This document shows, one piece after another, positions 13,725 to 64,000 of a stretch of 64,000 nucleotides of DNA (positions are counted from its first letter, which is position 1; each line of letters opens with the position of its first letter). The notes under the pieces were generated by a model. The model searched no databases. It worked only from the letters and a program-made list of their open reading frames with translations, and had not been told where the DNA came from. The position numbers were made by a program, and so were the translations under genes. This DNA is from Atriophallophorus winterbourni. Its lineage: Eukaryota > Platyhelminthes > Trematoda > Plagiorchiida > Microphallidae. Where the stretch lies: the NCBI GenBank assembly GCA_013407085.1, contig JACCGJ010003207.1, forward strand, positions 39,803 to 103,802, given 5' to 3'.

Positions 13725-14528
13725 TCATAGACAGCTGTGGACGTCATGTGACCTTTTCAAAGTGCTGCTTACCCATACACCCAAGTCCTTCTCCTTGTCA
13801 GTGCTTTCAATAATATGGGAACCAAGGGTGTAGGAGTACTCGAAATGTCTTCCAACAGTCAATACCTTGCATTTTCTGACATTGAAAGGTAGTTCATTTC
13901 TAACTGACCAGTCTTGTAAGGCATCGAGGTCCAGCTGAAGCTCTCTGCAATAATCAGATGTACGTACTTGTGTCCACAGCTTGATGTCTTCCGCAAATAA
14001 CAAGATTTTGCAGCGAACAAGTTCAGGTAAGTCGTTGACATACATCAGGAAAAGAAGCAGTCCAAGCACTGATCCCTGCGGCACCCCGCTCATTACTGCA
14101 ATAGGTCGTGACAAAGCACCATCAACCCTTACTCTAATGACACGGTCGCGGAGATAATCCTCAAACCAGGCTAGTAATGAACTTTTGATTCCACATAGCT
14201 CCATCTTTTGTGGTAACAGACTGTGGTTGACACGATCGAATGCTTTTGACATATCAAGATAACAAGCGTGTACTGTGAGACCTTTGTCTACAGCTTGTGT
14301 CCAGTCATCGAGGGCGAGCAGAAGGTTTGAAAGGCAAGAGTGTCTTTTTCTGAAGCCGTGTTGTTCGACTGCGAGCAAGCAATTGTCTTCCAGATGTTTT
14401 GTGACGCTGTTTACTACGAGGCACTCCATCACTTTAGAGATCACCGGTAGTAGTGTAACTGGCCGATAGTTGGATACTTCGGAACGGTTTCCTCCTTTGT
14501 GGATGGGGGTAATGATGCATTCTTCCAA
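13725..14528 (-). pseudogene. F3 reverse transcriptase, palm/catalytic part
   Basis: A 267-codon frame. NYRPVTLLPVISKVME, QHGFRKRHSCLSNLL, YLDMSKAFDRVNH and SGVPQGSVLG are intact RT motifs. The YXDD-equivalent FADD reads FAED, losing one of the paired catalytic aspartates. The frame breaks at the C-terminal side near 13.73 kb and resumes in 13640-13173. Confidence 0.85.
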
Positions 14529-16745: not shown

Positions 16746-16840
16746 AAAAAGAAAAGAATCACATAGTGATTTGTTGTAAAGCGCTCAAGGTTATTGTGGA
16801 TGACCAAAGTGATATGTTGTCCGCATTCCTTGAAATTATA

Positions 16841-16886
16841 CTCCATTACCTGATGACAGCAAACAGCCAGAAACCGGTAGTGGAGT
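16841..16886 (+). ncRNA. Hammerhead ribozyme motif, subfamily 2, partly decayed
   Basis: The core CTGATGA (16850-16856) and GAAA (16870-16873) are intact. CCGG then TA completes a zero-loop stem III (ACC/GGU) and a GUA cleavage triplet, with cleavage predicted after 16879. Stem II reads CAGC/GCCA around an AAACA loop, so only the two loop-proximal pairs form. The subfamily ancestor was probably TGGC/GCCA. ACTCC (16840-16844) can pair with GGAGT downstream as outer stem I. Part of the interspersed hammerhead repeat family described elsewhere in the window. Confidence 0.5.
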
Positions 16887-17019
16887 GTAATTTCTTTGGA
16901 TGCGCGCAAAACAGTACTCTCCATAATAGTTATACAAAATTAGGTAGATCACCTTTTTAGCGTTATCCCCTGAAAAAGTAAACGCTAGAATTTTCTGTTT
17001 TTTATACACGATTCTAGTT

Positions 17020-18753: not shown

Positions 18754-20450
18754 GTGTTGGACGACGGCAATACGGCTTTGACTGCACCGGAAAAAGCCGA
18801 TGCGTTGCATTCATTCTTCTGCCGTGTTTATCGGCGCGATTTAGGTAACTGTTTAGAAACTCACGAGTGCAGAGCACCTCCCTTTAGCTCGGTGGAGGTT
18901 AATCAGGAAATGGTCACCACAGTTCTGTCGCAGCTGGATAAAACTAAGTCAGCTGGCCCCGACGGTATACATCCGGCTATTCTTCAACCGCTCGCGAATA
19001 TAGTTAGCCTTGCAATCAGAAATATTTTCGAAGCTACCTTACTCCAGGGTATACTACCGGATGATTGGAAACGAGCGGCGGTAATAGCCATATACAAAAA
19101 GGGTCCCATTTCGGATGTACGCAACTACAGGCCAGTAAGCCTGACAAGCATTCTTTGCAAGTGCTTGGAAAAAATCATTCGGCACCAGGTATGTAAACAT
19201 TTGGTAGACAATTCCTTACTATCCGATGCCCAGCACGGATTCTGGAAAGGAAGGTCCTGCCTAACCAATCTTCTAAGCTTTCTGGACGAAGTGACATTAC
19301 GCCTCGATGAAGGGAGAGTAGTCGAAGTCTGCTATCTTGATTTTCAAAAGGCATTTGACTCGGTGAACCAGAGGTACCTTCTGCACAAACTAAGTATGTG
19401 TGGCGTCACAGGTGACCTACATCGATGGTTAGACAGCTTCTTAACTAATCGCACTAACTATGTTAGAATTGCAGGGGAGTGCTCGCAGGGATCACTGATT
19501 CTCAGTGGAGTGCCTCAAGGCTCGGTGCTTGGTCCATTACTTTTTCTTATTTTTGTAAACGACCTGGCAGCGTGCTTGAGTTCACGCTGCTTCCTGTTTG
19601 CTGATGATGTTAAGATCCTAGGAACCGCCAGTAGAGATACGCTTATCTCTGATTTAGAACAAGTAATCGAGTGGACAAAGACCTGGGACTTGCCACTAAA
19701 CCTGGGGAAGAGCTGTCTTCTGACGACTGATTTAGCGACAACCCAACTAGAAGTTGGTGAAGGAACCATCAGAATAGCGGCTGCTCAGAAAGTAAAGGAT
19801 CTTGGCATTACTATAACAGGCGATTTCAAATGGGCTACTCAATGTGCCGAAGCTGCAAACAAGGCTCACAGAGAATTGTTCAGACTTCGCTCAGCGTTAT
19901 CTTGCCGAAAACCTTCAATCTTCATTCCCTTATACAAAGTAGTCGTGCGGCCTCACTTGGAGTACTGCGTTCAATCCTGGGCACCGTACTTAAAAAGGAT
20001 ATAGCATGTCTCGAAAGGGTCCAGTGCCTTGCGACTAGGATGGTTGAGGGTCAGGCAGGTCTTGAAAGGGTCCAGCGCCTTGCGACTAGGATGGTTGAGG
20101 GTCAGGCAGGTAAAACTTATGAGGCTAGAATCAAGGACCTCGGTTTGTTCTCACTAAAGAGACGGCGGCTGCGAGGTGACATAATAGAAGCCTTCAAGAT
20201 TCTGAAGGGTCTAACGGGTGATAATATTACTAAAATCCTTAAACTTGCACCTAAAGCAGCTACAAGAGGTAATTCTATGAAACTTCTTAAGTGTAGGCAC
20301 AGGTTGCTGGCACGTGAGCACTTTTTCAGCAACCGTGTGGTCAACTTCTGGAACGAGCTACCAGATTGTATAGTAAGCCTCCCAAATGTGTTGAGCTTTA
20401 AAAGGGAATTAGACGGTAAATGGTCTATCATATTTCCGCATATTGTCTAA
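18754..20450 (+). pseudogene. F3 reverse transcriptase
   Basis: A 416-codon frame (18754-20004) holds KTKSAGPDGIHPAILQPLA, NYRPVSLTSILCKCLEKII, QHGFWKGRSCLTNLL, YLDFQKAFDSVNQRYLLHKL, SGVPQGSVLGPLLFL and the intact catalytic FADD. It then stops after VVRPHLEYCVQSWAPYLKRI, and the C-terminus continues in the frame ending at 20450 (GLFSLKRRRLRGDIIEAFKI). The 51-bp duplication at 20010-20111 lies at the frame junction. RT would copy the element RNA at the nicked target; this copy is non-functional as it stands. Confidence 0.85.
20010..20111 (+). repeat. 51-bp tandem duplication inside the RT
   Basis: Two consecutive near-identical 51-bp units, each ending gttgagggtcaggcaggt, differ at two positions. 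The length is divisible by three, so it adds 17 codons. Confidence 0.9.
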
Positions 20451-24400: not shown

Positions 24401-27400
24401 TATTGAAGTGCCCTGCAATACATTACAACGCACTAATGGAGAGGGCACTCCATTCCGCTTCTACTGATAATAACACGGGAAGCAGCAGATACCGGTTTAA
24501 ATCTTTGGTTCGGCTAGCGTAGAGCTCAGCGCCTGGGACTGCTTCCGACGGTGGGAGAGATTTTGAGGTCTCATTGGAAGGCTACCACCCGCCTTAAGCT
24601 GGGCAGACTGCAGTTAATAAGGTGCCGTCTCGCTACGTTCTGCTATGCTCATTGTGTGCATGAGGATTAGGAATCAACCGACAAGCTGAATGTATTCTTC
24701 CGCACCAGCAACACGAATTCATCATCATCATCATCATCACAGACAGCATTACACCAGTAGCGCGTACCGAATGCTTAACCGCCACACAACCATGAAAAAG
24801 TAAAATCCTAAAAGATGAGGAAGGGTGAGACTTAAATAGCTATGGATTCTATAGAAGAGTAAGCACAAACAAACTGGGAAGAGGTGTCTACACCTCGAAT
24901 GGAACATGCATCTAAACAAGTTTCGTGAACGAGTAGAGCGACATCAGCATGGCAGCTTTTTTGCGGCTTTCACTGTCATACATCCTAACAAGCTTTTCTC
25001 GTCACTCCGCTTGACAACATACAAGGTTAAGCAAACACTCCAAGAAGATGCTTAGTGCAAGACCGCCATTGAACACGGTTTCGGGACATATCCTGAAGCG
25101 TAACTAGCCATTGCGATATCTTATCTCGGGGACACCAATTTGGAAGACGCGCTGCGCCGACTTTGGAAAGGTTACTAGTAAGTGTTTTTAACTGCTTATG
25201 CCATGTGACGGTTTGGCCACCCCGAGATTTACGCCAATCTGGATGTGGCGTCGCAAAAAGAATCTGTTTTGGAATTCGGTGGTCCGGCATCCGTAAAACG
25301 TAACCTATGCAGGTTGATTTGCTTCTCTATATCAACATTACTACCGAACAACTTATTTCGGAGAGCATCGGTGCGTATGCGATTGTAACAGCTAACTCCA
25401 AGAATGTTGCGGAGACATCGGTTGTCAAATATTTGGAACGCTGAAAGTGTTCTTTACGTAGGGTCCAGGTTTCGCACCCATACAGTAACACAGCCCGAAC
25501 TGTCGCTTTATAGAGACAGTCCTTTCTGACGCCAGAGGTGACCTAGGTTGCGGAATGCTACGGTCGCTTTAGAAATGCGTGCCGAGACCTCGTCATCTAA
25601 CGATGCAGAATTATTGATACAACTACCCAGATACGTAAAGCGATCTACAATTTCAAGCGCCTGGTTGTCAAGTAATAAAGTGCTGTTTGATAAGTCGATG
25701 TCCTGCAGCAGAACACTGCACTTAGAGGGTCCAAAACGCATTCCAAATGCGGGCACAATACTGGATAGCTTGTTCAGTATCGCCTGTGCATCTGTGTACG
25801 AATCGGAGAGCAGATCTATATCATCAGCATAGTCCAAGTCGAGAAGCTTGACGCCTGGCATTATGTGAACTCCGAAGGTTGGAGCACCGTCGCTGCATAA
25901 TTCCATGATAGCATCAATTACGAAATTGAACAAAAACGAAGAAATCGGACATTCTTGTCGGACGCTACTTGTAGTGTTGAATTTGGGTGAGAGTTCGTTG
26001 TAAACCTTAACGCATCCGGATGTCTGTGCATAAAGTGCACGTCGTATGTTGACGTAATTTTGTGGAACGCCTTTGCATAGCAAGGTGTTAAACAGGACAT
26101 TTCGATCGACTGAATCAAATGCTACTTTGAAGTCTAAAAAGATGGCTATTGTCGGTTGCCGATAGGTGTGCCGCAGTTCTAAGATCCGTCGAAGATTAAA
26201 AATGTGGTCGGCACAGACTACCAGGTCGGAAGCCAGCTTGCTGCTCTCGGATATGTGATTCCCTATGCGATGTTAATATCCGAAGGCAGATTGACGCTAA
26301 TAATCTCGTCATGATGGGAGTGAGACTTATCACACGGTGATTAGAGCATGAGCTTCGCACAACTTTTTCAAACAAAGGTATGATAACCGATTCGCCCCAA
26401 CTCGGAGGGACGGATTCTGACAACCACACTTCACGGAGGAGATCGCCTAATGTGCTGATTAGGACTTGGCCAACTTCTTTGAACAGAACAGGCGGTATGT
26501 CATCGGGGCCAGCGGCTTTGAATCGCTTCATCAATTCGATACATGCTTTAATTTCTAAATCATGAGGGGATTTACGCTAACAGGCCAAGGATCACACTGC
26601 CTCACGTGAGGGGATGATTCTGTTGCAGGCGATCAGCTGAACTGTTCTTCAAAATGTTCGGCCCAGCGTACGAGGCGGCGATTCTTATTAGTGATAAGAG
26701 TACCGTCTATTTCAGCGATAGTCTCACTCACTCCTTTTTTCGTAGGCCCGGTCGATCGAATAAGTTGGAAGAGTTTTCGCATCCGTCTTTTCTTGAACAT
26801 ATCGTTATTGGACAAAGGCACTAATGCTGAAGTGATTTCAAAAGTTGGTCTACAGAGCATGTTCACCTAACTAGAGCAGCGCCGCCACGTCTACAGAATG
26901 AAAAGTTGTCGTATTCCTGAAGATAGACTCTATGGTGTGTTGCAATCAGGAAGTCGACCATTGGACAGACCGCAACGGCGGTAAAAGAAGTTTGCAAAAG
27001 AGATATGAAAGCTCTTGGCATTGACCGCGAGCTGGGAAGAACTTGCTCTTGACCGCTTATATTGGTGGCATTGTGTAAAGCGTAGTCTGCATGCTAAAGA
27101 GGGGCAGATACAGCTCTTGGCTGCTGAACGCAGATCACGCCACCGGCGTGCAACTGACGCCCTACAACTGAGTTCTACCTATCGTTGCAAGCTCTGTGGC
27201 AGAGATTGTTCCTCCCGAATCAGAAAGTTTATTCATTCAAAAAGCTGTAGAAGATGAAAATTCATGCGATTGGGATGTACATCCATGGTCGACATCGACC
27301 GAAGGAAGCCAACAACAATTCGTCACTGAGCCACCGCGGCGGGGTGCCGTTTATAAGATCAAGAATTTTGGAAAGACCCTCCATGCTGATGTAGTCGAAT

Positions 27401-30400
27401 GCCTTCGTTATATTGATAAAAACAGTGTATAATGGCACAAGCTGTTCCCCATACTTTTCTTGAAGTTGTCTCAGAGAGAATATCATGTCGATGGTTGATC
27501 TTCCCCTGCGAAAGCCACATTGAGATTCGGAGTAAATTCTATCAGTCAAAACTTGTATCCGGATCTGTAAGACTTTAGCAAACAATTCGCCCACAACATT
27601 CGAAAGGGAGATTCCTCTGTAATTGTTGCAGTCACCTCTATCACCCTTATTCTTATATAGCGTGATGATCTTCGTGTCTCGCATCTCGTGTGGGATGCTC
27701 TCCTCCTGCCAGCACTGAAGAAGCCAATGGTGAACAGGCTCTATTAATGCTGTTCTACAGCATTTGATAAGATCAGCTGGAATTCCGTTGTAACCAAGGG
27801 CATTCGCATTCGCTAAGCGGTCGATTGCCCCATTGAACTCATCAAGAGTAGGAGGGGTATCTAGATATTCAATGATCGGCAACCGCTCGAGATTTTCAAG
27901 TGCATGCGGCGAAACCATGCTGTCTCTAGTGTAGAGAAAGTTGGTATTCTGTGTTATCATTTTAATAAACATATTACTCAATCACAATTTTTCTTCAAAC
28001 TACTCTGGGCACCCATTTCGATAGATTTGCGAGGTGAGATTCTCGAATTGTGGAATTCTTCATAAATATAAATTTGTAGCGTCATCTCAATTCACAATTT
28101 ATGGAGACGAAATTGCTACCCTATAGCCTTCAAATCATTTGATTAGGAGTTTCTTGAAAATCCTTTCCGACTAAATGTGCAGTGTAAGTTGTGTTTTAAC
28201 GTAAGCGTGAGCCACATTTATCCGCTCGGAAATGATTTGATAACCATCAAACGGAATATTCGGTCACACTGCTTTTATTTTTCAGACAAAGCTTCTACGT
28301 GCAAGATGCAATTCAATTTTATTAGTTTGGAAAACATATGGGTTTGCATGAACCCCAATAATAGAATATTGTAACAGGCGAAAACGGAAATCTAAAGAGC
28401 AGAATTCTTTTTGGTTGCATAATGGAGGGACATGTGAAGTTAAATTGTGTCACGATGTATAATTTTCTTCCACGCAAAGGTTCGAGGCCAAGAAGGTTTC
28501 AAGATTTCCCTCTAACATATTCTAAGTTCAATGGTTCTCAACATGTTCTTGTAAATTGTCCGACGTAAAACAAACACGTGCTGTGAAAATGTGTCGTCTA
28601 CGGTTGATACATGAGTGAGGTACAGTCGAACGTTTTATGTTCGCTCTTGCCTTACCTGAGCCCCATAGATTGCGTAAGCATAACAAACGGTGGTCGGTGG
28701 CTAGCGAAATATAGTAAGTCAAAATCAAATCCCATTGGAGAAGATGACGTTGAAAATCGAAAGATTTTAGCCGGGTAATTTGTTTATTGTAGGGTTTCCA
28801 GCTGAGTCTGGCGAAACATTTTGTAGTTTGTTGTAGTGTTCTTCGCAAAATCTCAACATTTTTCATCTATTGCGACCATCCTTAAAGTGGTCACCGTGGA
28901 TCTCATATAGCTGTTTATTATATGGGATAGCGCCTACTTTGTGAAACGCTTGAACAATTTATTCAGAATTGACAATCTACGCGAGGTATTTTGATGGACA
29001 GTTTTGCAGTATCTGGATGTCTCTGGAGTGTTGCTTATTCAAACACCCAAATCTTTTCGTTCCGTGATCTACGAGTGGCTGTTGGCACCCAGAGAATATT
29101 GAAACTACAAATTTTCCAAAGTTCAACAAGTGCAACATTGGAAGCACATAGTATTTTTATGGACCAACCGTGGAGATTGTCCAGACCCTTCTGGAGCGTT
29201 ATTGATCCTCTACCAACTATTAATATCATCGGCGAAATGTACTGTTTGACACTTCGTGGGAGCCGGTAGGCCATTGGCATAAAGTGCAAAGAGAACAGGT
29301 TTGACGACGAATCCCTGAGGCACGCGAATTGTCACGACCGCCGAATTTGATAACCAACCATCCACAGAGACTTGAACAAACCAACCAGTTATGTTATTTT
29401 CTAACCATTATAATAGTCAGGTAGTGAAGTGATAACGTTCCAGCTTTTGTTGGAGAATGCCGAGGTTTACGCCAGCAAAGGTCCTTGATATATCCAGGTA
29501 GAATACATCTACTGCTCGATTCAAATCGACAACAGTAACGATGAATGCGCTGAAATCTATCCTTTTATTCAACCATAAAGCATTGAAAACATGCCTGGGT
29601 TTGCCAACTGGAGAATATTTTTAAATAATAACAATCAAATTTGTGAATAACTCCATTTCTTCATGGTAAGTATGTAATTTACGAACACAGTCGTTCAGTA
29701 ATAACATTTTTGAGTTAAATAGCGCTTGAATCCTTCAAGACGCGGGATTGCTAAGCGTGGTTTTGGCACTTTGAGAACAACTACAACACATCCAGCAATG
29801 CCACGAACTGCGAACTGCTAGTTTCTTTTCTTTGGTTGACTTTCACATTGAAGAAGCATTTTTCGATAAACGATCTCAAATTCTAAAATATTTATTTGCA
29901 TGCTTTTCCGTCACACACACACACCCCACGACCGGTTTCGTGCTGCTGGCACTCATCAGGTAGGGACAGTAAGATCAGAATCCGCATTTTGCGATTTGAT
30001 AAATCATTTCATAAAGCAGATTGTTTGGATGAATGACAAATGAAACGGAATATGTTGACAATAATAAAATATTTTCCTCAGAGTGATTTATGGTCGTAAC
30101 TTTAAAGAGTAATGCCTTCGTAATTGTCATCACTAAACTCCAGCGATTTAGTAAGAATACGCATTCTTCTTTCTCGTTGAATGATAAAAAACAAATTTCA
30201 AGACCCATTTTAAAAGGTAATTTTTAGGAAAACGCAAAGTTGTTAGAACTGAATCCGCTATATGAGTTGAACTCAGAATATTACAGTGAAATTTTATTAT
30301 TAATATTAACAGCATAAACGTAAGTAGTACAGTTATTGTAATATTCTTGAATTTCTTGAGTTGCAATATAGAACTGATCACTTACGCTCTGAGCTACCGT

Positions 30401-31838: not shown

Positions 31839-34800
31839 AATGATGATGAACAAAACTATGCTTAGAATAAACAGTTAATCAGATTGACAGAGCCAATCTC
31901 TGGATGATCGATTCAGCAATGGATCAAACTTAACAGATCTAATCCCTGTAAAATCCCGGTCAAAAGGCTGCTCACAGACTTTCACTTACGCCGGTCTCGG
32001 ATATCCGATCGGATAACCAGTCACATGCAATCTGACATCCCCTTGTTGTTGATTGAAAATAAATTTAATTCCGCACAGCCACAGAAGTTCTTCCTGGCCA
32101 AGACCATAAAAAACCGAGATTTCTTTGTATTAGATCGCGTACGTTCAGTCGAACTACTTCGATTGTTGTGGCACCGATAGGGCTTACAATTCTTGCCCCT
32201 AGCTTCAATGACCCATTGCACAGTTACTAATAACTGTCCGGTAACGCTTTTATAGAAGATGATATAGAATTAAGCGGTTTTTCAATTTCACAAGCATTTT
32301 GTCACTCCACTTAGGTGCTTAGGTGTGGTACGAGAATTCGGTATCCTTATCATCCAGTTCCACAAAAGCAGCAAAATTTATGGTTGCATGTATGATTTCA
32401 TCAATAGTTGGATGGTATTTATGCTGCTCTCTGATAGTTGCCATTCCGGTGATATACATACACATAGAGAGAGACTTGTATTTTATTCATCATCATATCT
32501 CTGATGACCGTGGTGAAACGGTAATAATGTATCTCTCACTGAAATACCAATAAGACTATGACTCACCAAATGTTCATCCTCTACGCAGGTGGGTTGTGTG
32601 TGTAAATGTTTCCGCTTCGTCCCAAGTCGCCCAGAAGAGGTTGGAGAATATTGGCTCCGCAAGCGCAGAGATTTCGATCCAGCCGCATATCGGATCAAGT
32701 GCAAATGCAAACACACGCATGAAGAACACTTGGCCGACCCACCCCCGCACCGCTGCCAAGCCAAGGGTTGTGGATGTTCGAAATTCCAATCCACGTCGGT
32801 GTGCGCGGCGTGTGACAAGCCGTGGGAAGCGCATGACACGGTCATTGAGACCGAGGCGGAACGGAGAGCAGCAGGAAGACAAGTCGGTGAGTCACGCGTC
32901 TTCACGGGGGGATACGCTTTAATCCAGTTCACAGGAACCGTATTGCTCATGGCTTCTAGAAGCACTTGTTATTGTTGTTGTTGTTGGCCTCCTTCGGTCA
33001 ATGTCGACAATCACAATCGCATGAATTTTCATGTTCTACAGCTTTTTAGAATGTCTAAACAATCCGATTCGCGAGGAGCAATCTCTTCCGCAACGCTGGC
33101 GGCGTGATCTACGTCCAGCAGCCAAGAGCTTTATCTGCTCCTCCCCAGCTTGCAGACGACGCTTTACACAGTGTAGAAGCACTAAGGCATTAATATTAGG
33201 CTATTTCAATCTACATTTAAATTGGGAACGAGAGGCAATCCTGAACATGTTTGAATCGTTCCTACAAACTTGAAACAACTTTGTTGTTCAATCATGCAGT
33301 TTGAAGTTGGGCTCAAGATAGAAGTTTATAACATTCAGAAATTTTGCACACTCCATAAATGGTACTCAGTTTGATTACTCATGTTTTATTTCTTGCTCTA
33401 CACTCTTGGTACATAGCATGGTGTTCTGTGGATAAAGGATGCATTGCATCGCTTCTATTCAACTTCCAGATGCATCACTGATGACAGTGTTTCAAATCAA
33501 TTTAGAGGTAACTTCGGTGCAAAAGCATGTGGCACACACGATCTATGCTTTTTGGGACTTTAACACTTTAGGTGTTTACAAATTCACTCGCGAGGCATGT
33601 ACTCATGTGCTCATGCACTCAAAAGCCCTAAGCAGATTGTTTGAACAGAAATACGAGAATTTCACAAAACACATGTCAATCCTATGATATCGTGTCATGA
33701 GTGACAGAATGACAGGTGTGCCTTTCAAATAAGAGGCACTAGATAGAAAACTTGCTGTGCACAATGATTGCAACCCTAATTCCAAGCCAGACCGGAGTGT
33801 ATAATGGTTTCTGTCGGAGAATACGCCGTGTCTGTTGGGTGAAGCCATCTTATCTGTGACACCCAAGGTTGTGTGATCTTTATTGAGAGTGATTCAACAG
33901 TTATTGACTTGTAGCACCAAAATAAACACGTAATGAGTCATCACACACTCCAGACGTTATCAATGCACCAGCAGTGATGCAAGAGAATAACGACCAACGT
34001 CAGTTAAGCGGAATGACAAGGAAATCTTGCCTAGTAGTGAAAGCCGCAAGAAAGCTGACGTGCTGATGGCACTCAACTCGTTCACGAAACTTGATTGAAT
34101 GCCTGTTGCAATAGAGATGCAGCACATCGTACCAGTTTGTTTGTGTTTACTATTCCCTAGATTTTGGATCTATCAAATCACATCCTTCCCTATCTTTTGG
34201 AATATCTCGTTTTTTCATGATTGCATGGCAGTTATACATGCGTAACTTGTTACCGGTGTAATGCGGTCCTATAAGATGATGATGATGATGGTGACGTCAG
34301 TCGGTTAGAAACATTCCATCATTTATATTTGTGACTACTCATCCGTACCAAGGCCATCGAAATATTTACAAAGTTGATCATGAAGGTCCTTAATGGAAAC
34401 ACTGGACTCCAGTTTCGCTCTTATTTGAGCTCATCAGCAGTGCATATCCTCCGCTTCGGGTGGGATTCTAACCTTCGTACCATCACCATTGTAGTCCCAC
34501 GCCTTAACGACCTGGGCAAACGTCCATCGTTTGACCAATCACAATTAAGCGTTCATGAACTATTCTCCAGATTGGTACATTTGAGTAGCTTTGTTTGCCC
34601 AACCAGTTCAGATGGAGCCAGCAACATCTGTTGTGGTCGCCCAACTGAACAGTTATCCGTGTCATGTCTTCCAATGGGATACAGTGTATGCTAATACCGA
34701 TTAGATCTGATGGACATTGTTGTTTAAGCGATATTTGGAGAACATGTTGTTTATATTTGTGACTACTAATCCATGCCAATCCCATCGAACTATTCACAAA

Positions 34801-40827: not shown

Positions 40828-42699
40828 CTATTTGACTTTTTCCGTTTTGAACCGAGGACGTTTGGGTTTGGATTCCTTGGTTTTGTCGGTAGATTTTTTC
40901 TTCCGTTTTAACAACCAATTATGAGGATCGCGATATCGATTTTCTTTATCATCTGACAAGGTTGACAATTTGTAATTAAAGTGAAGTCGCTACGTGGTCA
41001 AATTGAAGATTAATAATCAAGTAGATTAGCTCGTGTGATCACATAAAAAGCACACATAAAAATCGTTCCATTTGTTAAAACGAAGCTACAAAGTATTTTT
41101 CAAAAGCACTTGACCTTGACAGAGTAAAGCGATTAGAATAGTTAATATGTGAGAGATAATAAAAAAATCAATAAGCACGCGAGGTTGAAATGAATGCAGT
41201 ATTTAGGAATCGGGTGTTTGAAATGTGATTCATACTTTCAGTCTTGCATCAAATGCCATGCAATGTCTATGATTTGGTATAAAAAAACAAATCAGCATTA
41301 TTAACCATCAAATTTGTTATTTGATATGACAGACTTCGTCAAACATAATTGGCGACTACACAGGAAAACTATGCCCAGTGACGTCAGAATAAGCACATAA
41401 AACGCAGCCTTAGAAACACAAGCCGAATCATTGCCGTGCAAAGATACTGAAAACTCAAACTCAAAAGACGGTTCAAATAACCACAAAGGTCGGGCTCTCA
41501 GGGGATCGGACCAATAGACACCATCCATACATCATCGTTACATACCAAAACCAGTATTAATTGTGTATTTACTAATACGCAGTGTTTGTGGAACAAAATA
41601 CTGTGTTGGTCACAGTTTACTGAAATCCCTTAGTGGTTCCTTCTTACACACATCTGGAAAACAAATTAAGCAAACATATATAAAAATGTCCTCCCTTCAT
41701 GTCACAATTAAAATTACTTTTACTCCTCCTTTGAAGCACATGGACGCAAACATTAAAGTACGATTTGTATAAGTTTCATATGTATATCCTATGTCATTTG
41801 CTTTTCGCATCATAAATCTTGAATTTTATAGAGCCCCGGTTGTGACCAAGATTGATCGTGCACGAGTCTAAGGTTGGTTGTGACAAACCTACATATTAGC
41901 GACGAATATATTGCGTTGCTCACATCCTCATCCCTTACTTACTTACTACTTATTAGCGACTTCAAATTTAAAGCTGTATTAATTATTCAAACACACACCA
42001 CAGCAGAGTTAGTTCTGTTTGCACTCATCAGATACGAGCAGTACGATCAGGATTTGCGTGCCTTGAAACAGTGGAGGAATGGTAAACACGTTGTTGAGCT
42101 TGCACGTCAGTGTTGGATAAGGTTGTCACGACTAATATGTTCAAGCTCATATGCATGAACACGTGGTGATGGGCCTAAACCCATGGTCGTGAACAAAGCT
42201 TTTCGTTTGCGTGCATCATCATCAAACAGCGTACATCACACACACAAACAGCCACGACCGGCTTCCTGCTGTTTGCACTCATCAGGTAGAGACATTACGA
42301 TCACGATCTACATGATTTGAAATAGCGCAAAGTGGTGACCGAGATGTGAACACTGTTTTAAGGCTTGCTAAAGCTAAGCATTCGGACTGATAGTGGAATA
42401 AACAAAGTACATGAGTGTCATACTATATAGGTTGAATCGTGGTTTTTTTAATCCTCAACAGCATCACTGCAATCACCAAAAAAAGGTTTTGACGACAAGG
42501 CAGATCACCTGATATCAATTTGAGTCGGGTTACATGGTCAGTATGTGTTGATATGGATGAGATATGTGTGCTTGTGCGTTAAATAGAGTGCAAAAATCAC
42601 TTAGAAAACTAATGATATCTCTAATGATGATCAAATCGAGTGGTCGAAAAAAGTGAAAATTTACCGCTTTTCACCCTTACGGAGCTCACTGAAACTCAT
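40828..42699 (-). CDS. Candidate small Lys-rich protein (two exons)
   Basis: The terminal exon 40962-40828 (acceptor ccttgtcag) encodes DKENRYRDPHNWLLKRKKKS, then a Lys/Pro-rich end PKRPRFKTEKVK and TAG. Its amino-acid make-up is unlike the AT-rich noise around it. A candidate first exon, 42699-42681, reads ATG then SFSEL and ends at a GTAAGG donor in the matching phase, giving a 47-residue product; further exons may be missed. An alternative acceptor at 40989 would extend the exon in phase 0. Such a basic end would suit a nucleic-acid-binding or nucleolar protein, but that is only inference. The intron contains two hammerhead repeats in the sense orientation. Confidence 0.35.
42001..42037 (-). 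ncRNA. Hammerhead ribozyme motif, decayed
   Basis: CUGAUGAG and the 5' side and loop of stem II (GUGC AAACA) survive. The 3' side is mutated and the GAAA box reads AACUAAC, so self-cleavage is not expected. Confidence 0.55.
42251..42291 (-). ncRNA. Hammerhead ribozyme motif, damaged
   Basis: CUGAUGA, GUGC-AAACA-GCA and the CCGGUC/GUGG cleavage region remain. The closing pair of stem II is lost (C to G) and GAAA has become GAAG. Probably inactive. Confidence 0.6.
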
Positions 42700-43207: not shown

Positions 43208-46200
43208 TCACAGCAGTGCCGAGCGCCAGATTTTGGAGATTTCTACCCCATCCACCTTATTGACTGTCAGTCGACCTGCCTTCGCAATTTCGACCGCCTC
43301 CGCATGTAGGCGTTCGCTATACGCATTATACGCATTATGAATACACGATCGGTCCCAAACATATTCCAGTCGATTGATGATTAGCACCATTTTTCAGCCA
43401 CAAACGGTGCAGAATATGTAATTTTTTGGAAAAATAATAATTTCCAGTGGAAACCGCCTAGTTGTATCCCATGGGTGTTGTTTAACGTCGCATCGCCTTG
43501 TGTGTGTGGTCTGCACGACACGCACGCGTGCAAGTTAACGATCGTCTTGACCACGTGACGAATGGTCGATTTTGAAATGGGTCACATGACCCTCAGTGTT
43601 TAACTATTGTATCGTATGGTAGAGTGCGGTGGATCGAAAATTACATGACATTAATGCAATGATTGACGGACACAAACCTGTCATCAATGTTGTTGATCAG
43701 CGCACGCGTCTTGCCTAAACAATTCAGAAATTATTCCACTTTGCAAAGTATTATAAATTAATGTCAACAGCTGCTAATCAACATGCAATAGAGCGAGTTT
43801 ATCGAGATGAAACATGCTCGTCTGACTAAATTTTGTGATTTCGATTTCATGCGACCACACTTAAAGCCTAAGAATGGTCAAAAATCGATGATGAATCATA
43901 ATCAGCAATTTTGATGTATTTTAAGGAAAGATTTCGCCCAGGTCTATTAACTATGAAATGAAGTCATGCATTTGTACGGAGAGAAATAAACAAATATCAA
44001 TTTAATTCAAACTACGTAATTGAAGATTCAATGATTCAATGAATTGAAACAGATCAGATAAGCGGCCAAGAAGTTAGCAAAACCATCATGCGATTTAGGA
44101 CCAATTAGTTAGCAAACTGAGATTAACTAAACTGTTATACACAATTGGTCACCCGTTCAAGCTACTTACGGCTTTTCGAACGTCTCGAAAACAATGCTCG
44201 TATTTTGGCTAAAACAAATGTTGATAGATTTACAAACAAAATACACTTTTTGTCTAAAATAAGGCTGTTGGAATAACATTATTGGTATGTTTCTATGGAC
44301 AGATGGATGGAATCGTGATTAAATATTGTTGTTATCAAGTTATACCTCGTGTGGTATGTAAAGTTGAGTGTAAGAGTGTCACCGTGGTAGGTTCAGAAAA
44401 TATATGTGACATTTATACTTATCCATATGATAACGCCAGATAATATGTCACCTCTTCTGTCAAAAATCACGCAGTAGGAACAACGGGTTGGTTTTGAAAT
44501 CAACCATCATCGCTTCAATGATATTGGCCCAATCTCGCTTTAAAATTATAGCCTGACATTAGGTGTACCTTCAGATAACGACACTTAATCACAGTAACGG
44601 CAACATTTCAGTGATTTTTTACCATATTGAGGTTGATCGATACCTTTTTAAAAGAAAAATATGATGGCCATCACCATACGTCATCAGTGTGATCAAAGGA
44701 GAATCTGAGTGATCATATCGTCATGTACGGATCGCGTTGTGCACAATTTATTCGTTTAGGTTATTTTGTCATGAACTGCAGTAAGAATGTCGCAAGCCTA
44801 AAGCTGAAGAGCAATGTTTGTTTGGTCTTCTTGAAATTGTAGGGTTTAAGAAACCAAAAGCTAAACTGACAACACAATTGCCTTCTTGATTCAATCCACA
44901 TAGGTTTACCAATAGGTGATTTAACTTCAACAGCTTAAGCACATCATAGCCCTTCGTCTAAAGTATGTGCCAATGTAATTAAATGAACCTGATTCAGAAT
45001 TGAAAGACTACATTTAAACATCAAAAATACAATTATACTTCATTGCCCGTCAATGTGATAAAAATCTATGTAGATGGCATCGCAACAAAAAATGAAATAT
45101 ACGTACCCAACGAGATCACACTACTCTCCTCTTCAGCATTCATCCGAGCGAGACTATCTGATCGTTGGGAGAGCTGCGAAATCAAAGTTCTCCTCGATTC
45201 GCCAATTGGCCATTCTGGTTCCTCGGTCGGTAAAGCATTGTCATCCATGTACGGAACATCGTAGACGGCATTTTTGCTGCCACGGAAACTTGGAATCTTG
45301 GTAGGGGTAAGAGCATCTGGGAATAAGTAGTCATCATTTACAAATACACATCCAGAAGGGGGATATTCGAGCGTACTCCACGGTCTCCGCTTGCCAGAAT
45401 CGCCAGTTCCTCTGCGGCGAACATCGATGGTGTTCGCATAATCGGAAAGAATCGGAGTAATTCTAATGCCGGTCGGGAATGAAGGAATTTCTGGTGGTTG
45501 ATCAGAAATCTCGGTGTCCATTGCTTCGTTTGATAATCGATGTGCCGAATCTTGTCCGTGCCACGTTTGCCTAGTGCTCAAGTCCTTTTGAGCAGGCAAC
45601 ACTTGTGGTTCAACCGACAAATCACCTTCTTTCTGTTGTTTTTTCTTCACTCGCCGCTTTGCCTTGCGTTGCCTAGGTTTTTCCGGTGAAATTATGGGTT
45701 CCTGTAGATTTTCATCATCTTCCGGTGAGGAAATAGGTCGATATTTATGAGACCGGGGGCGAAGTGAATCGAAGAAACGAGAAATTTTATGTCCTGGTCG
45801 TGTTGGAGATTCTAAGGTCGTGTGTGCAGAAACCACTGGACTGACTATGGTTGAAGGACATCCGGAATCAGGGAATGCATCTGTCGAATCAGGAGATCTT
45901 GTGGTCGGGTCAGGATGTGATGAAGATGGAATATCGACAGAAAGATGGGTTGAAATATGGTGAGCATCGGAAGCTTTCAAACCGGTAGTGATGGAAGGAG
46001 ATGCAATATCACGTTGCAACGCTGAGCCAAAGGGAATTGGAGTGGATACAGGAGGACTTGCTGCAACCTTAATGACAGAGACTTCATCAACTACAGGTTC
46101 TGAAACAGATTCTTGAGGAGGAATGAAGCTGGAATCATATGAAAGCGAACCGAGGACGTTTAAATCATCAGATGAAAAAACAGACGTGTCACATATAGTG

Positions 46201-49200
46201 CGAGGATGGGCTGAGACAGAGGCAGTAGAAGAAATTCGATCAGCGATAATTGCGGGTTCGAAAACCGGAGAATTAAAAGTCTTCGCTTCACCACCGACTG
46301 CACCGGCCTTCAACTTCGCTTTCGGCAGCTTCAACTTGGGCAACTTCAAAGATAAACCTTTCTTACCACCGACATCAGCATCAACACCCGCACCAGCATG
46401 TGCATCCACTTCGATCGACGGTGCCTGCACGTCCACACCCACTTCACCAGATACAGCCGGCTTCTTGGCCTTCAATGAACCCTTCTTGCCCTTGCCGAAG
46501 CTGAAACCGAATTTCTTCTTCGGAATCTTCACCTCAGCACTCGGAGCTTGCACGTCGCCGGAAACGCCAGCTTCCACGGTCGGCAAGGTTACGTCGACTC
46601 CAGCACCGCCATCAGCGCCAACCGCAACACCGGGCAACTTTGCCTTCTTCTCCTTCTTGCCAAACTTCAAACCGAACTTCGGCATCTTCACCGAGATACC
46701 AGGAGCAGTCGCTTTACCACTCACATCCGGAACTGTCACACCAACATCAGGAGTCTCCAGCTCGGGACCTCGAACCGTTACACTGGGACCAGTTGCCTCC
46801 AGCCGAGCCTCGGGCAATTCCAAATCCACGCCAGCTTCACCAGCAACACCAGGCAAACTAACCTCAGCCCCAACTCCGGGAACTGACACATCGCCAGTCA
46901 ACGAAACATCAGGTAAGGTCACCGCAGCCTCGCCACCAACAGACGGAACCGACACGTCCACACCGGCACTCACACCGGGCAGCTCCACGCCCGGACCGGA
47001 AACATCCAAGGCAACGTCAGGGGCACCGATCTTCGCCTCACCACCGACAGCACCGGCCTTCAACTTCGCTTTCGGCAGCTTCAACTTGGGCAACTTCAAA
47101 GATAAACCTTTCTTACCACCGACATCAGCATCAACACCTGCACCAGCATGTGCATCCACTTCGATCGACGGTGCCTGCACGTCCACACCCACTTCACCAG
47201 ATACAGCCGGCTTCTTGACCTTCAATGAACCCTTCTTGCCCTTGCCGAAGCTGAAACCGAATTTCTTCTTCGGAATCTTCACCTCAGCACTCGGAGCTTG
47301 CACGTCGCCGGAAACGCCAGCTTCCACGGTCGGCAAGGTTACGTCGACTCCAGCACCGGCATCAGCGCCAACCGCAACACCGGGCAACTTTGCCTTCTTC
47401 TCCTTCTTGCCAAACTTCAAACCGAACTTCGGCATCTTCACCGAGATACCAGGAGCAGTCGCTTTACCACTCACATCCGGAACTGTCACACCAACATCAG
47501 GAGTCTCCAGCTCGGGACCTCGAACCGTTACACTGGGACCAGTTGCCTCCAGCCGAGCCTCGGGCAATTCCAAATCCACGCCAGCTTCACCAGCAACACC
47601 AGGCAAACTAACCTCAGCCCCAACTCCGGGAACTGACACATCGCCAGTCAACGAAACATCAGGTAAGGTCACCGCAGCCTCGCCACCAACAGACGGAACC
47701 GACACGTCCACACCGGCACTCACACCGGGCAGCTCCACGCCCGGACCGGAAACATCCAAGGCAACGTCAGGGGCACCGATCTTCGCCTCACCACCGACAG
47801 CACCGGCCTTCAACTTCGCTTTCGGCAGCTTCAACTTGGGCAACTTCAAAGATAAACCTTTCTTACCACCGACATCAGCATCAACACCCGCACCAGCATG
47901 TGCATCCACTTCGATCGACGGTGCCTGCACGTTCACACCCACTTCACCAGATACAGCCGGCTTCTTGACCTTCAATGAACCCTTCTTGCCCTTGCCGAAG
48001 CTGAAACCGAATTTCTTCTTCGGAACCTTCACCTCAGCACTCGGAGCTTGCACGTCGCCGGAAACGCCAGCTTCCACGGTCGGCAAGGTTACGTCGACTC
48101 CAGCACCGGCATCAGCGCCAACCGCAACACCGGGCAACTTTGCCTTCTTCTCCTTCTTGCTAAACTTCAAACCGAACTTCGGCATCTTCACCGAGATACC
48201 AGGAGCAGTCGCTTTACCACTCACATCCGGAACTGTCACACCAACATCAGGAGTCTCCAGCTCGGGACCTCGAACCGTTACACTGGGACCAGTTGCCTCC
48301 AGCCGAGCCTCGGGCAATTCCAAATCCACGCCAGCTTCACCAGCAACACCAGGCAAACTAACCTCAGCCCCAACTCCGGGAACTGACACATCGCCAGTCA
48401 ACGAAACATCAGGTAAGGTCACCGCAGCCTCGCCACCAACAGACGGAACCGACACGTCCACACCGGCACTCACACCGGGCAGCTCCACGCCCGGACCGGA
48501 AACATCCAAGGCAACGTCAGGGGCACCGATCTTCGCCTCACCACCGACAGCACCGGCCTTCAACTTCGCTTTCGGCAGCTTCAACTTGGGCAACTTCAAA
48601 GATAAACCTTTCTTACCACCGACATCAGCATCAACACCCGCACCAGCATGTGCATCCACTTCGATCGACGGTGCCTGCACGTCCACACCCACTTCACCAG
48701 ATACAGCCGGCTTCTTGACCTTCAATGAACCCTTCTTGCCCTTGCCGAAGCTGAAACCGAATTTCTTCTTCGGAATCTTCACCTCAGCACTCGGAGCTTG
48801 CACGTCGCCGGAAACGCCAGCTTCCACGGTCGGCAAGGTTACGTCGACTCCAGCACCGCCATCAGCGCCAACCGCAACACCGGGCAACTTTGCCTTCTTC
48901 TCCTTCTTGCCAAACTTCAAACCGAACTTCGGCATCTTCACCGAGATACCAGGAGCAGTCGCTTTACCACTCACATCCGGAACTGTCACACCAACATCAG
49001 GAGTCTCCAGCTCGGGACCTCGAACCGTTACACTGGGACCAGTTGCCTCCAGCCGAGCCTCGGGCAATTCCAAATCCACGCCAGCTTCACCAGCAACACC
49101 AGGCAAACTAACCTCAGCCCCAACTCCGGGAACTGACACATCGCCAGTCAACGAAACATCAGGTAAGGTCACCGCAGCCTCGCCACCAACAGACGGAACC

Positions 49201-55200: not shown

Positions 55201-55259
55201 TCCAACTTTTGAGGTTCCACGACGGTTTCTGAATCCTCGATTCTCTGTTCGATATCCAT
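43208..55259 (-). CDS. AHNAK: AHNAK-like giant repeat protein, four coding exons
   Basis: Exon 1 (55259-45107) starts at the first ATG after an in-frame TAA, in the context AAAATGG. It encodes about 3384 residues: an acidic/Lys-rich head with KRKRFRRSGKK near residue 105, about 10.7 repeats of 250 residues (about 320-2993), then a Ser/Pro-rich tail with RQRKAKRRVKKKQQK near 3205. Each repeat has Lys blocks (KMPKFGLKFGKKEKKAKLPG; KKKFGFSFGKGKKG; LSLKLPKLKLPKAKLK) between Val/Pro strands, the AHNAK/periaxin signature. The frame stays open to TAG at 45066, but a donor GTACGT at 45106 joins in phase to 44208-44170 (acceptor tttgttttag, donor GTAAGT), 43714-43678 and 43316-43208, giving a 3445-residue product ending KVDGVEISKIWRSALL. 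AHNAK proteins are membrane-associated scaffolds; flukes carry them at the tegument surface. Single-exon termination remains possible. Confidence 0.85.
43317..45106 (-). other. Putative AHNAK-like 3' introns
   Basis: Three introns (45106-44209, 44169-43715, 43677-43317) with GT donors GTACGT, GTAAGT and GTTTGT and acceptors ending TTTTAG, GTTTAG and CGTATAG. The last intron ends within a 33-bp block shared with 56858-56890. Confidence 0.55.
46281..54300 (-). repeat. 750-bp tandem repeat array in the AHNAK-like gene
   Basis: Unit boundaries fall at 46281, 47031, 47781 and so on every 750 bp to 53781: ten complete units and a partial one of about 520 bp. Units differ at only a few positions and none differs in length. 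The partial unit at 53781-54300 (first in the protein) is diverged and shortened after 54200. The array is visibly richer in G+C than its surroundings. Confidence 0.97.
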
Positions 55260-56504
55260 TTTTGATAAAAATAATAAATCCACAATAATTGGTCGCGGTT
55301 AATACCGATCGATCACACAGTTATATCCAATAGGGAAATGAGACACAAATGTTACGTATTACCGGATGTTTTGCAATTGTGCACACGAAAAACAGGTTTG
55401 AAACATAAGGCCGTTGAAGAACAGAGCAATTGGTCTTGATTGACGTGGTTTGTATTGAACGATGAAATGCTCTACACTCACAATGCCTTATTTGTAAATC
55501 CGACAAGAATGCACTCAAGTCTTGTACAAATGCAAGGAGGTTCACATGGAAGCACCTCCTTTCCTCGTATGATAAACGGTCGAAATGATTGACCTAGTGC
55601 CGGAGAAATCAGATCAGCGGTTCTCGTGGGCGGAGTGTTTCAACGGATCGTATGTGTTTTCGTGTGCGTGTGTGTTTGTGTTTGTGTGCGGGGTATAATC
55701 CGTGGGTACTTTTACGGTAGATCACAGTACTATATCCAACCGAACGGGGACAATAGTATCCGAATACCCCTTTCAAGTAACTATGCGCCAGATTTTACCA
55801 CGGTGCATTTTGTGTACCCCGTGGGTGATCAGACTGAAGAGTGTGTGCGAGCAGCGGTATACGAACGAGATATTTGATTGGCTAGAAAACGATCTGTATG
55901 TTTGATTGGTTAAAAATCATGGCATTTCGATTTGCGCGCACTGACAAGTTATTGGAGGTTAGACTCATCGGAAACAGACACGTGGTCGCAGAAAGAGGCC
56001 GAACCCTGATGGATGATAATACTTTCATTTGGTGCCCGGACGCCCTGCTTCTGCAATTTTGCAACTCGGCTCAAACGTACTTGTAAAAAATTTAAACAAA
56101 TATTAATCATTATGCGTTGAACTTATTTTCAGCATTAACCAGTGTTGTCATTCCATCAAGTTATGGACCACCTATTGAATTCACCGCAAAAATATTTTGT
56201 GTTTGGTTGAATCTCCTGAATTTTTGGCATTTAGTTATAACATTATATTAAGCCTAGGTGGACTTTCAAGAGGAATGCCAAAAAATAGCAAGAGAGTAGT
56301 ATAAATAATGAGGTAAAATATAACAAAGGTTGACGTGAAAAATCAGTTTGGGCTTAATGCCAATAGAGCCCGAAGAGCAGACGCGATTGAGGAAAGTCTA
56401 GGTACCTCAGTGAGCATAAAATCAAAATGAGTCCGGGTTGAGTTTTTGGAAATGGTAACGCCTTGATATCTAGCAAGTTTCCCTTTACTAATGTAAGTGA
56501 ATTT
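55260..56504. other. 5' flank of the AHNAK-like gene
   Basis: Contains a short GT-rich run at 55655-55690. Plus-strand frames at 55626-56086 lack splice or family support. No TATA box or other promoter element was convincingly identified. Confidence 0.45.
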
Positions 56505-58030: not shown

Positions 58031-58061
58031 TAATGAGTTGCTCACATCCCCCGCACTTACA

Positions 58062-58103
58062 CACCACTACCGGTTTCTGGATGTTTGCCGTCATCAGGTG
58101 GAG
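58062..58103 (-). ncRNA. Hammerhead ribozyme motif, subfamily 2, partly decayed
   Basis: The minus strand reads CUCCAC, CUGAUGA, CGGC-AAACA-UCCA, GAAA, CCGGUA, GUGGUG. The core boxes are intact and the triplet is GUA. Stem II keeps two G-C pairs but lacks the closing pair. Same stem II type and GUA triplet as 16841-16886. Confidence 0.5.
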
Positions 58104-58377
58104 ATGCATATATATCGTTTGAACGTGACATGCATCTGATGGTGCTGGCGTAATATGCTAAGTGAAAACCATTTGCTGCTCACACATACACACACTGGCA
58201 TTTCACATTTACAATACGTTCAGACAGTAAGATTAGTTTCAGTGAGCCTTGAATTGATAAACAGTGAATGCGCTGCAAGTTGCTATTAGATAATATTCTT
58301 ACAAAGAATCATTAGGTTCAAATAAACTGAGCGATTCATGGTCAAGCGCTCAAGATGAATATAAATCAGCACTAACA

Positions 58378-58425
58378 CTCCACCACCAGATTCTCGCGCT
58401 TTGCGTTATCAGGTGGAGACAGTAA
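58378..58425 (-). ncRNA. Decayed hammerhead repeat copy
   Basis: The minus strand has CUGAUAA, a CGC-AAA-GCG hairpin, a disrupted GAGAAU box and the flank gtctccac. Recognisable by position and flanks but not expected to be active. Confidence 0.35.
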
Positions 58426-58649
58426 GATTGGGTTCAGTGGGTGTTTGTAACGGTGGAAAAGTGGTGAATATGGTTTCACTATTAAACCGCGGTAAAATCG
58501 GGCTCTCACAAAGATGCACCGTGGTCGACAATAAAATCACAGACTGATTCCCGGACTAGCGCTCAAAAAGCTTGTAAAGGACCAATGTTTATTGTGTTGC
58601 TCGCCTCTCCTTGTAAACCTTTTCTAGAATCTCATTTGTCAATAACGAG

Positions 58650-60959: not shown

Positions 60960-61170
60960 AGCCCATTAATGAAACCCACTTACATTTGTGTGATTGAACG
61001 GGTTGGTCGGGATAACCTTATCCAACAGGGGCATACCAACGCAACTTGTTTACCATTCTTCCACTGTTTCAAGCGCGTGGAGATCCTGATCCTACGGAAG
61101 AGTGCAAACAGCATGAAACCGGTTGTGGGGTGTGTTTGATGGAAATGCATGCATGCCGCCTGAAACCACT
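60960..61170 (+). repeat. Hammerhead repeat copy, plus strand
   Basis: The unit body (gattgaacgggttggtcggg, ttaccattcttccactgtttc) is followed by the ribozyme region and the gatggaaatgcatgcatg block seen at the right edge of the window. Confidence 0.75.
61092..61131 (+). ncRNA. Hammerhead ribozyme motif, damaged core
   Basis: GUGC-AAACA-GCAU, GAAA, CCGGUU and GUGGGG are preserved, but CUGAUGA has become CGGAAGA, which removes essential core residues. Inactive. Confidence 0.6.
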
Positions 61171-63040: not shown

Positions 63041-63045
63041 CGTAA

Positions 63046-63375
63046 TCAAGTTGCGCTTTATGCCACTGATGAGTAAGGTTGGTACGACCAACTTGTTCAA
63101 TCACATGAGTTCACCCTCATGCAGTTAGGGTGTAAACCCATAACCATGAACATAAAACTCATTTGGATGCATTTCCATCACACACACACACACACCCCAC
63201 GACCGGTTTCGTGCTGTTTGCACTCATCAGCTAGGGACAGTAGGATCAGGATCCGCATTCGCTTGAAACAGTGGAAGAATGAAAATCAAGTTGCGCTTGT
63301 ATGCCACTGTTGGGTAAGGTTGGTACAAACAACCCGTTCAATCATATGGGCCCACACTCATGTAGACTGAGTTTG
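63046..63375 (-). repeat. Tandem hammerhead repeat (1.4 units, period 240 bp)
   Basis: tcaagttgcgctt recurs at 63046 and 63286, giving a 240-bp period. The intervening unit holds the CA-rich tract and the ribozyme; the second unit is cut at about 63375. Confidence 0.8.
63195..63236 (-). ncRNA. Type I hammerhead ribozyme, complete core with one stem I mismatch
   Basis: The minus strand reads CCCUAG, CUGAUGA, GUGC-AAACA-GCAC, GAAA, CCGGUC, GUGGGG. Stem II is perfect and the cleavage triplet is GUC. One substitution turns the stem I base pair next to the core into G-G, which may lower activity; the next five pairs are intact. Confidence 0.8.
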
Positions 63376-63804: not shown

Positions 63805-64000
63805 TCCATGTGATTGAATAGGTTTGTCGTGCCAGCCTTATCAAACTACGGCTTTCAAGTTCATAACGGGTTTACCATTTATGTGTGGTTTTAAACCATT
63901 GTACATGTTGTTTCTTGTGCTGTCTCTACCTGATGAGTGCAAACATCACGAAACCGGTCGTGGGATGTGTGGGATGGAAATGCATGCAAATGCGAGTTTT
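63805..64000 (+). repeat. Hammerhead repeat copy running off the right edge
   Basis: Same unit as 60.96-61.17 kb (gtgattgaataggtttgtcg, acgggtttaccatt, gatggaaatgcatgcaaa), in opposite orientation to the copy at 63.05-63.37 kb. Confidence 0.75.
63924..63965 (+). ncRNA. Type I hammerhead ribozyme, complete core
   Basis: The plus strand reads CUCUAC, CUGAUGA (from 63930), GUGC-AAACA-UCAC, GAAA, CCGGUC with cleavage predicted after 63959, then GUGGGA. Stem II has three pairs (GUG/CAC); stem I has five pairs including two wobbles. All core residues are present. Confidence 0.8.

Follow-up and report, generated by a model that had tools for sequence, protein, structure and literature searches.

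The stretch of the Atriophallophorus winterbourni genome analyzed here (64,000 nucleotides [nt] of contig JACCGJ010003207.1; hereafter, the window) carries, on its minus strand at 29924..29965, a type I hammerhead ribozyme that lies within an interspersed, partly tandem retroelement akin to animal retrozymes, schistosome repeats and Penelope-like elements. A preliminary description had rightly placed the repeat in this class. The reading we favor, at a probability of roughly 75%, is that the repeat is a non-autonomous retrozyme of a digenean fluke, with a minimal and probably dimeric hammerhead, that relies on a Penelope-like enzyme, acting in trans, for its movement. Both the ribozyme and the repeat are of a known kind; as far as could be seen, what is new is the combination of a minimal stem III with a record of insertion from two sites, in which a family with thousands of copies preserves two fixed starts of reverse transcription that meet head to head within a short duplication.

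Read on the minus strand from 29965 to 29924, the core is CCCTAC-CTGATGA-GTGC-CAGCA-GCAC-GAAA-CCGGTC-GTGGGG, and each of the hammerhead elements named in the preliminary description can be read directly from it. Stem I pairs 29965-29960 with 29929-29924, CTGATGA occupies 29959-29953, stem II pairs 29952-29949 with 29943-29940, GAAA lies at 29939-29936 and a palindrome, ACCGGT, spans 29936-29931. Cleavage is predicted after C 29930, i.e., between 29930 and 29929. This is the arrangement of a type I hammerhead, with a core of CUGANGA and GAAA, stem II between them, an NUH triplet at the cut and an open stem I. A 44-nt pattern of the core, searched with up to three mismatches, matched twice in the window and had no match in any of 100 shuffles.

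The core recurs in the 537-Mb genome. The 30-nt pattern CTGATGAGTGCN5GCACGAAACCGGTC, which defines family A, has 3,964 exact matches (1,920 forward and 2,044 reverse), and the same pattern read backwards, used as a control, has none; a chance motif is excluded by this copy number. A sister family (family B), with the core CTGATGACGGC...GCCAGAAACCGGTA, accounts for 2,317 exact matches, again with none for its control. The cleavage triplet is GUC in family A and GUA in family B. Among 103 distinct cores, many of them from loci picked by a pattern containing GAAACCGGTH, the palindromic stem III (GAAACCGGTH) is present in 82, and a number of the cores are decayed. Judged from its sequence and that of its relatives, the hammerhead at 29924-29965 is real.

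The repeat unit was defined as a 233-bp consensus (GC content, 45.5%) from a tandem array, locus L059, in which 14 adjacent units of 230-234 bp share a mean pairwise identity of 95.4%. Phases of the unit are numbered from the first C of CTGATGA, which places the predicted cut after phase 30. Further tandem arrays of family A have periods of 234 and 237 bp, some adjacent family B cores are spaced 241 bp apart, and the unit occurs both in tandem and dispersed. Within the arrays, units follow one another head to tail, separated by neither a long gap nor an open reading frame (ORF). An ORF that opens with the AUG within CUGAUGA, like that of the Penelope pseudo-long terminal repeat (pseudo-LTR), was considered and rejected because the ATG frame is not conserved, ranging from 11 to 78 codons across 119 family A copies. 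Several of the traits that mark animal non-LTR retrozymes are found together in the fluke repeat: hammerhead-bearing units of 150-450 bp in tandem, a GC content below 50%, no coding capacity and duplications longer than 4 bp.

Pairing of the unit as RNA was assessed by covariation. A total of 264 profile hits gave 117 full-length copies, 102 of them distinct, which were reduced to 46 representatives; four of these, divergent copies from the L059 array, were removed prior to alignment and 42 were aligned. The structure that was tested consists of seven helices with 38 pairs and was hand-drawn from the unit fold and the alignment. It comprises a hairpin at phases ~129-145, the arm AACAGTGG/CCACTGTT with an inner ACAAG/CTTGT, an outer helix around the ribozyme (GCATGC/GCATGC) and, from the ribozyme itself, stem I, stem II and two stem III pairs. 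In the 42 copies, 88.7% of cells are paired, and 16 pairs and 38 cells are changed on both sides; none of 500 shuffles was as high on any of five pairing measures. Controls in which the pairing partners were slid were exceeded in cells paired (88.7% vs. at most 43.2%), in two-sided cells (38 vs. at most 23) and in covariation score (0.143 vs. 0.027-0.062). Family B exchanges the GCATGC/GCATGC outer helix for GCTTAC/GTGAGC, and compensatory two-sided changes affect two pairs in stem I and two in stem II, largely as divergence between families A and B.

Insertions were characterized in the window and in a set of loci comprising the best-scoring hits (L001-L028), the 30 places listed first for the pattern (L029-L058), 20 regions chosen among the remainder of the 100 places listed (L059-L078) and the COX1 loci (L079-L082). 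The 114 clusters of unit hits were reduced to 101 by dropping 13 (edge, N or duplicate), and of these 78 are simple, 22 are head-to-head and one is tail-to-tail. Flanks sharing at least 8 nt were found at 29 of the 101 clusters, as compared to 77 of 5,050 shuffled pairs (1.5%). One of the 29, L059 1902-2602, lies inside the array, is not an insertion and was removed by hand, leaving target-site duplications of 8-15 bp at 28 of 100 insertions. The copy that holds the hammerhead described above, 29885..29987 on the minus strand (103 nt aligned to the 233-bp unit by blastn at 90% identity), is a simple insertion that is truncated at its 5′ end and runs from phase 206 to phase 71. It terminates at the common 3′ end of the family (site A, AATATTTT), and no convincing target-site duplication was found around it, the longest shared flank being 6 nt.

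The 3′ ends of the copies are fixed at two sites ~108 nt apart, site A (phases 60-79) and site B (phases 174-188), whose limits were set after seeing a histogram of ends that omitted L059, L060, L018, L051 and L052. Outside the array there are 15 simple insertions with a duplication, and every one of them ends within site A (phases 62-78). Head-to-head insertions with a duplication number 13; in 12 of them one end lies at site A and the other at site B, the thirteenth has ends at 64 and 156, and none combines A with A or B with B. If 12 A ends and 12 B ends were paired at random, the chance of obtaining only A-B pairs would be 0.0015; the pairing rule is seen in a small sample. All 22 head-to-head insertions, taken together, comprise 13 of type A+B, one A+A, three A plus another end, three B plus another end and two with other ends. 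The A-type end of the complementary DNA (cDNA) lies ~42 nt past the ribozyme cut (phase ~72) and the B-type end ~150 nt past it (phase ~180), just beyond the ACAAG/CTTGT hairpin. By eye, several copies of family B end at the corresponding places. The starts of simple copies cluster as well, with 26 of 78 falling in the interval from the CCACTGTT strand to the 5′ foot of the outer GCATGC helix (phases 188-206); the short solo form is thus approximately the ribozyme domain, as if reverse transcription stopped at the next domain of the RNA. Head-to-head arms, a short duplication and an extension on one arm only are the features of Penelope-type insertions, and by this analogy the anatomy of the fluke insertions is that of Penelope, which narrows the class to Penelope-type integration.

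Stem III departs from the account given in the preliminary description, according to which ACC and GGU form a loopless stem within a complete hammerhead. RNA geometry does not permit ACC and GGU to form a hairpin without a loop. Within one molecule, ACCGGU can close an A-U pair, or at most A-U and C-G over a two-base loop, and the full six pairs of this palindrome need two molecules. Since a loopless stem III cannot close, a complete monomeric hammerhead was rejected, and the stem reads better as a dimer interface. The fluke cores have the palindromic stem III of at most three pairs that distinguishes the minimal dimeric hammerheads of the Penelope type, and the ACCGGU palindrome fits, by analogy, the dimeric ribozymes known from newts and from Penelope-like elements. 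For family B only, the cofold dimer is, by eye, an exact double hammerhead in which stems I and III are intermolecular. The minimal hammerhead of the fluke element is probably dimeric.

From this evidence we infer transcription, cleavage, dimerization, circularity, an order of priming and the identity of the enzyme, as follows. The 233-bp unit would be transcribed as multimers, and the minimal type I hammerhead, most effective when two molecules are linked by ACCGGU, would cut the multimers to unit-length RNA, which a host ligase may then circularize. The retrozyme RNA would be taken in trans by a Penelope-like enzyme that has a GIY-YIG endonuclease; this enzyme would make staggered nicks and start reverse transcription inside the RNA ~42 nt past the cut, at phase ~72. 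The second DNA strand, when primed, would start ~150 nt past the cut, at phase ~180, and the two cDNAs would meet head to head, producing two different 3′ ends and a target-site duplication of 8-15 bp. A more specific proposal, which we put forward tentatively and consider doubtful, is that two retrozyme RNAs are loaded as a double hammerhead onto a dimeric Penelope-like enzyme and copied from A and B on opposite strands. If true, the geometry of the ribozyme dimer would set the architecture of integration, retrozymes would move by Penelope-type priming of two strands, and each full insertion would consist of two head-to-head copies, one with a short 3′ end and the other with a long one. The two-site record would also offer a reason for the palindromic stem III.

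Candidates for the enzyme were sought by scanning for the GIY-YIG domain with Pfam, in which 150 of 1,370 genome candidates were scored. The domain was found above the Pfam cut-off at no fewer than 17 places, several of them near-identical. At one of these, L086, a stretch read by eye as a Penelope-type reverse transcriptase lies ~0.7 kb upstream of the GIY-YIG match, and a family B fragment (2047-2176) that ends near site B and has a 15-bp duplication adjoins both. This unit-like stretch was rejected as a pseudo-LTR shared with the L086 element, being a separate insertion with its own duplication. A weaker unit-like stretch occurs in L088 (E = 0.005). Broken frames resembling GIY-YIG beside hammerhead copies (L071, L048, L038, L049 and L070) were discarded as evidence; the L071 piece scored below the Pfam cut-off and no relative of it was found, and the pieces from L048 and L083 gave no GIY-YIG match.

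A separate observation concerns the DNA beyond the endonuclease domain. In four of the 17 GIY-YIG loci (L091, L094, L095 and L101), a CTGATGA...GAAACG motif lies ~180-250 bases downstream of GIY-YIG on the same strand. The motif, CTGATGATGTCATCTAG..GAT..CGAAACG, is located at L091 1905, L094 1335, L095 1325 (minus strand) and L101 1907, and is present in decayed form in L086 near 1860. It was judged hammerhead-like by eye; stem II is perfect in L091, and L094 and L095 are identical in sequence. The motif was not scored by Rfam in the eight loci scanned, nor in any of the 17 by R1, a covariance model that we built from 30 cores, and it is therefore a lead only.

A number of results weigh against the retrozyme reading or parts of it. 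At the Rfam gathering score there was no match in the whole window. In a scan of 501 bases run at an E-value threshold, the core itself reached 26.0 bits (E = 2.6e-4) with Hammerhead_HH9, which is conserved in amniotes and has a gathering score of 52. The covariance-model check proposed in the preliminary description was thus positive in a permissive scan and negative at the curated score; that description had counted the lack of any such match as evidence against the ribozyme, and support below the curated cut-off comes close to this. The low score is answered by the copy number and the covariation. The covariation, however, is in large part a single A-to-B divergence, because of which the covarying cells are not independent events. 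Slid versions of the structure reach 18 pairs with two-sided change, compared with 16 in the real one, and up to 46 pair types, compared with 47. When 30 copies, deliberately chosen to be divergent, were aligned over the core only, with one row misaligned by one column, three of the five measures were not significant.

Folding programs also gave results that run counter to the drawn structure. Given all 42 aligned rows, RNAalifold predicted no pairs. On 13 hand-chosen rows it predicted 38 pairs, which included the hairpin, arms and outer helix together with the greater part of stem I; stem II was missed, and in the core CUG was paired with CGG. The minimum-energy monomer ties up the CUG of the core, and the cofold minimum of family A is a different dimer and not a double hammerhead. 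Shuffles are only slightly less stable than the circular fold (z = -1.9), which is matched in stability by the antisense circle. With regard to the insertions, the sample was chosen by similarity or by an intact core, so that copies lacking a hammerhead fall outside it; one of the 22 head-to-head insertions is A+A, and eight have an end outside both sites. Finally, no autonomous element sharing the sequence of the unit was found in the 17 short GIY-YIG loci, and the neighboring reverse transcriptase plus endonuclease in L086 was judged by eye.

Of the other explanations, the one that survives best, although we regard it as improbable, is that the repeat is a short interspersed element (SINE) that carries a hammerhead and depends on a long interspersed element (LINE), like schistosome S-alpha. 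It would be transcribed by RNA polymerase III and inserted by target-primed reverse transcription of the CR1/RTE type, with twin priming giving rise to the inverted copies. S-alpha provides a trematode precedent (PMC8490949; this and the papers cited below are represented by excerpts). The target-site duplications and the 5′ truncation of copies fit target-primed reverse transcription, and RVT_1 is matched by four of the six window frames tested. The plus strand of the unit, however, contains no B box by simple consensus and a single A-box-like match (phase 158), and a SINE transcribed by RNA polymerase III was rejected for lack of the B box. Two fixed and different 3′ ends are joined in 12 of 13 cases, and to our knowledge LINE twin priming uses no second fixed 3′ end. 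Tandem arrays and a circularly continuous unit, moreover, do not fit an ordinary SINE.

It is very unlikely, in our estimation, that the repeats are not a separate retrozyme but solo pseudo-LTRs belonging to autonomous Penelope-like elements. Minimal hammerheads do sit in Penelope pseudo-LTRs (PMC7761336), and the hammerhead-like motif past GIY-YIG in four loci would agree with such an origin, but that motif differs in sequence from the unit, in none of the 17 GIY-YIG loci, which are short, did R1 give a match with E below 0.1 or was a Penelope-like element seen with this unit on its flanks, the clear unit-like stretch in L086 is an insertion in its own right, and the unit repeats head to tail without a long gap. 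A satellite propagated through unequal exchange and rolling-circle DNA amplification, with the hammerhead as a relic and no RNA step, could account for the many-unit 233-bp array in L059 and for the decayed cores, but is scarcely credible in view of the duplications at 28 of 100 clusters, the fixed 3′ ends with variable 5′ truncation and the RNA-pair covariation between families A and B.

In the window, R1 gave ten matches at E < 1e-7, of which those starting at 29916, 63920, 58054, 16840 and 34394 overlap rows used to train the model and those at 63187, 42241, 61086, 58370 and 41988 do not. A longer family A copy on the minus strand, 63042..63341, extends from phase 123 through the hammerhead (63187-63240; R1 81.6 bits, not a training row) to phase 182, a site B end. 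The third family A copy lies near the end of the window on the plus strand (63814..63992), with its hammerhead at 63920-63973 (74.4 bits, training row). Family B is represented by hammerheads at 58054..58107 on the minus strand, with the GUA triplet (62.7 bits, overlapping a training row), and at 16840..16893 on the plus strand (59.3 bits, training row). Decayed copies are located at 41988..42314 on the minus strand (two hammerhead matches, 42241-42295 and 41988-42041, with 58.2 and 32.9 bits; blastn 71%), at 60994..61153 on the plus strand (match 61086-61138, 49.7 bits; blastn 81%) and at 58370..58468 on the minus strand (match 58370-58422, 35.8 bits; blastn 72%).

The window also contains an unrelated and more canonical type I hammerhead on the minus strand at 34384-34453 (37.6 bits with Rfam HH9, below the gathering score of 52; E = 4.9e-8 for a scan of 501 bases), with stem I GCACUG/CAGUGU, stem II GCUC/GAGC, a two-pair stem III with a UGGA loop and a GUC triplet; the R1 match at 34394-34447, which overlaps a training row, is this hammerhead. 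Ten weak R1 matches (E = 0.056) at 750-bp steps fall in a 3,405-aa open frame on the minus strand (45066-55283) that is built of near-identical 750-bp repeats and looks AHNAK-like by eye, and they were taken as chance. The RVT_1 fragments, of non-LTR type by eye, lie at 18754-20004 on the plus strand and at 13725-14528, 27262-27981 and 25508-26083 on the minus strand; for the first of these, the first eukaryote-named hit was from Dicrocoelium dendriticum (49%). Matches to COX1 with TAG and TAA stops were found on C4746, C11485, C8922, C10138, C4773 and C15234, and a readable copy on C6618; those with stops are apparently mitochondrial insertions in the nuclear genome, or host contamination. 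Translated with the flatworm mitochondrial code, COX1 was nearest to that of Prosthogonimus cuneatus (79% identity), ahead of other trematodes, and it places the genome among the digenean flukes.

Minimal dimeric hammerheads of Penelope-like elements, situated in Penelope pseudo-LTRs, were reportedly described by Lunse, Weinberg and Breaker in 2017. The fluke unit differs from these in that it stands alone, in head-to-tail arrays without an ORF between units. Among the literature matches listed, no title or beginning of an abstract described the fluke repeat family, which does not prove its absence, and the trematode hammerheads were schistosome ones only. Retrozyme-like repeats have already been named for platyhelminths (PMC7229834), and the units of animal non-LTR retrozymes range from 150 to 450 bp (PMC7229834; Cervera and de la Pena, 2020). 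The fluke element resembles these in having a type I hammerhead per unit, units of 233 or 241 bp, tandem arrays, a GC content below 50%, thousands of copies and duplications longer than 4 bp. Retrozyme hammerheads of invertebrates mostly cleave well as monomers (PMC7229834), whereas stem III of the fluke is a loopless palindrome of the minimal Penelope type; in addition, fluke copies are dispersed as two-ended, head-to-head insertions, a form that does not appear in the excerpted text of PMC7229834.

The W elements of Schistosoma mansoni are likewise trematode repeats with minimal hammerheads; their stem III is very short, and three of five tested candidates, the ones whose motifs are intact, cleaved in vitro (PMC8490949). 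The fluke families and the taxon differ, and the excerpt of PMC8490949 gives no two-ended insertion anatomy for W elements. The satellite hammerheads of newt and axolotl, set beside the fluke element by description, share a weak stem III, although their units are longer (330-350 bp) and their hosts are vertebrates (PMC7229834). These hammerheads are far more active as dimers, and in HHR_Amex1, one of two from axolotl, stem III is a single pair capped by a tetraloop that is palindromic (PMC7229834).

The closest parallel to the insertions is found in Penelope itself. Penelope inserts of Adineta vaga have inverted, head-to-head pseudo-LTRs with 8-10 bp target-site duplications and a tail on one arm (PMC3846280). 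The Penelope-like protein of Anolis (Poseidon) cuts and extends both strands in vitro, with internal starts at two adjacent RNA sites past the hammerhead, and cleavage-dead hammerheads left insertion unchanged (PMC11167929), which implies that the ribozyme need not take part in integration itself. The fluke element has the same head-to-head arms, short duplications, one-arm tail and two end sites. Penelope and Poseidon, however, are autonomous, with reverse transcriptase and endonuclease, and have a tail of ~30-40 bp, whereas the fluke ends are ~108 nt apart. The mover of animal retrozymes has been left open, with Penelope-like elements as a strong candidate (PMC7229834; PMC7761336). The two-site record makes this question testable by counting junctions in any genome that bears retrozymes, together with one in vitro reaction, and may explain how the thousands of dispersed minimal hammerheads in animal genomes (PMC7761336) arose.

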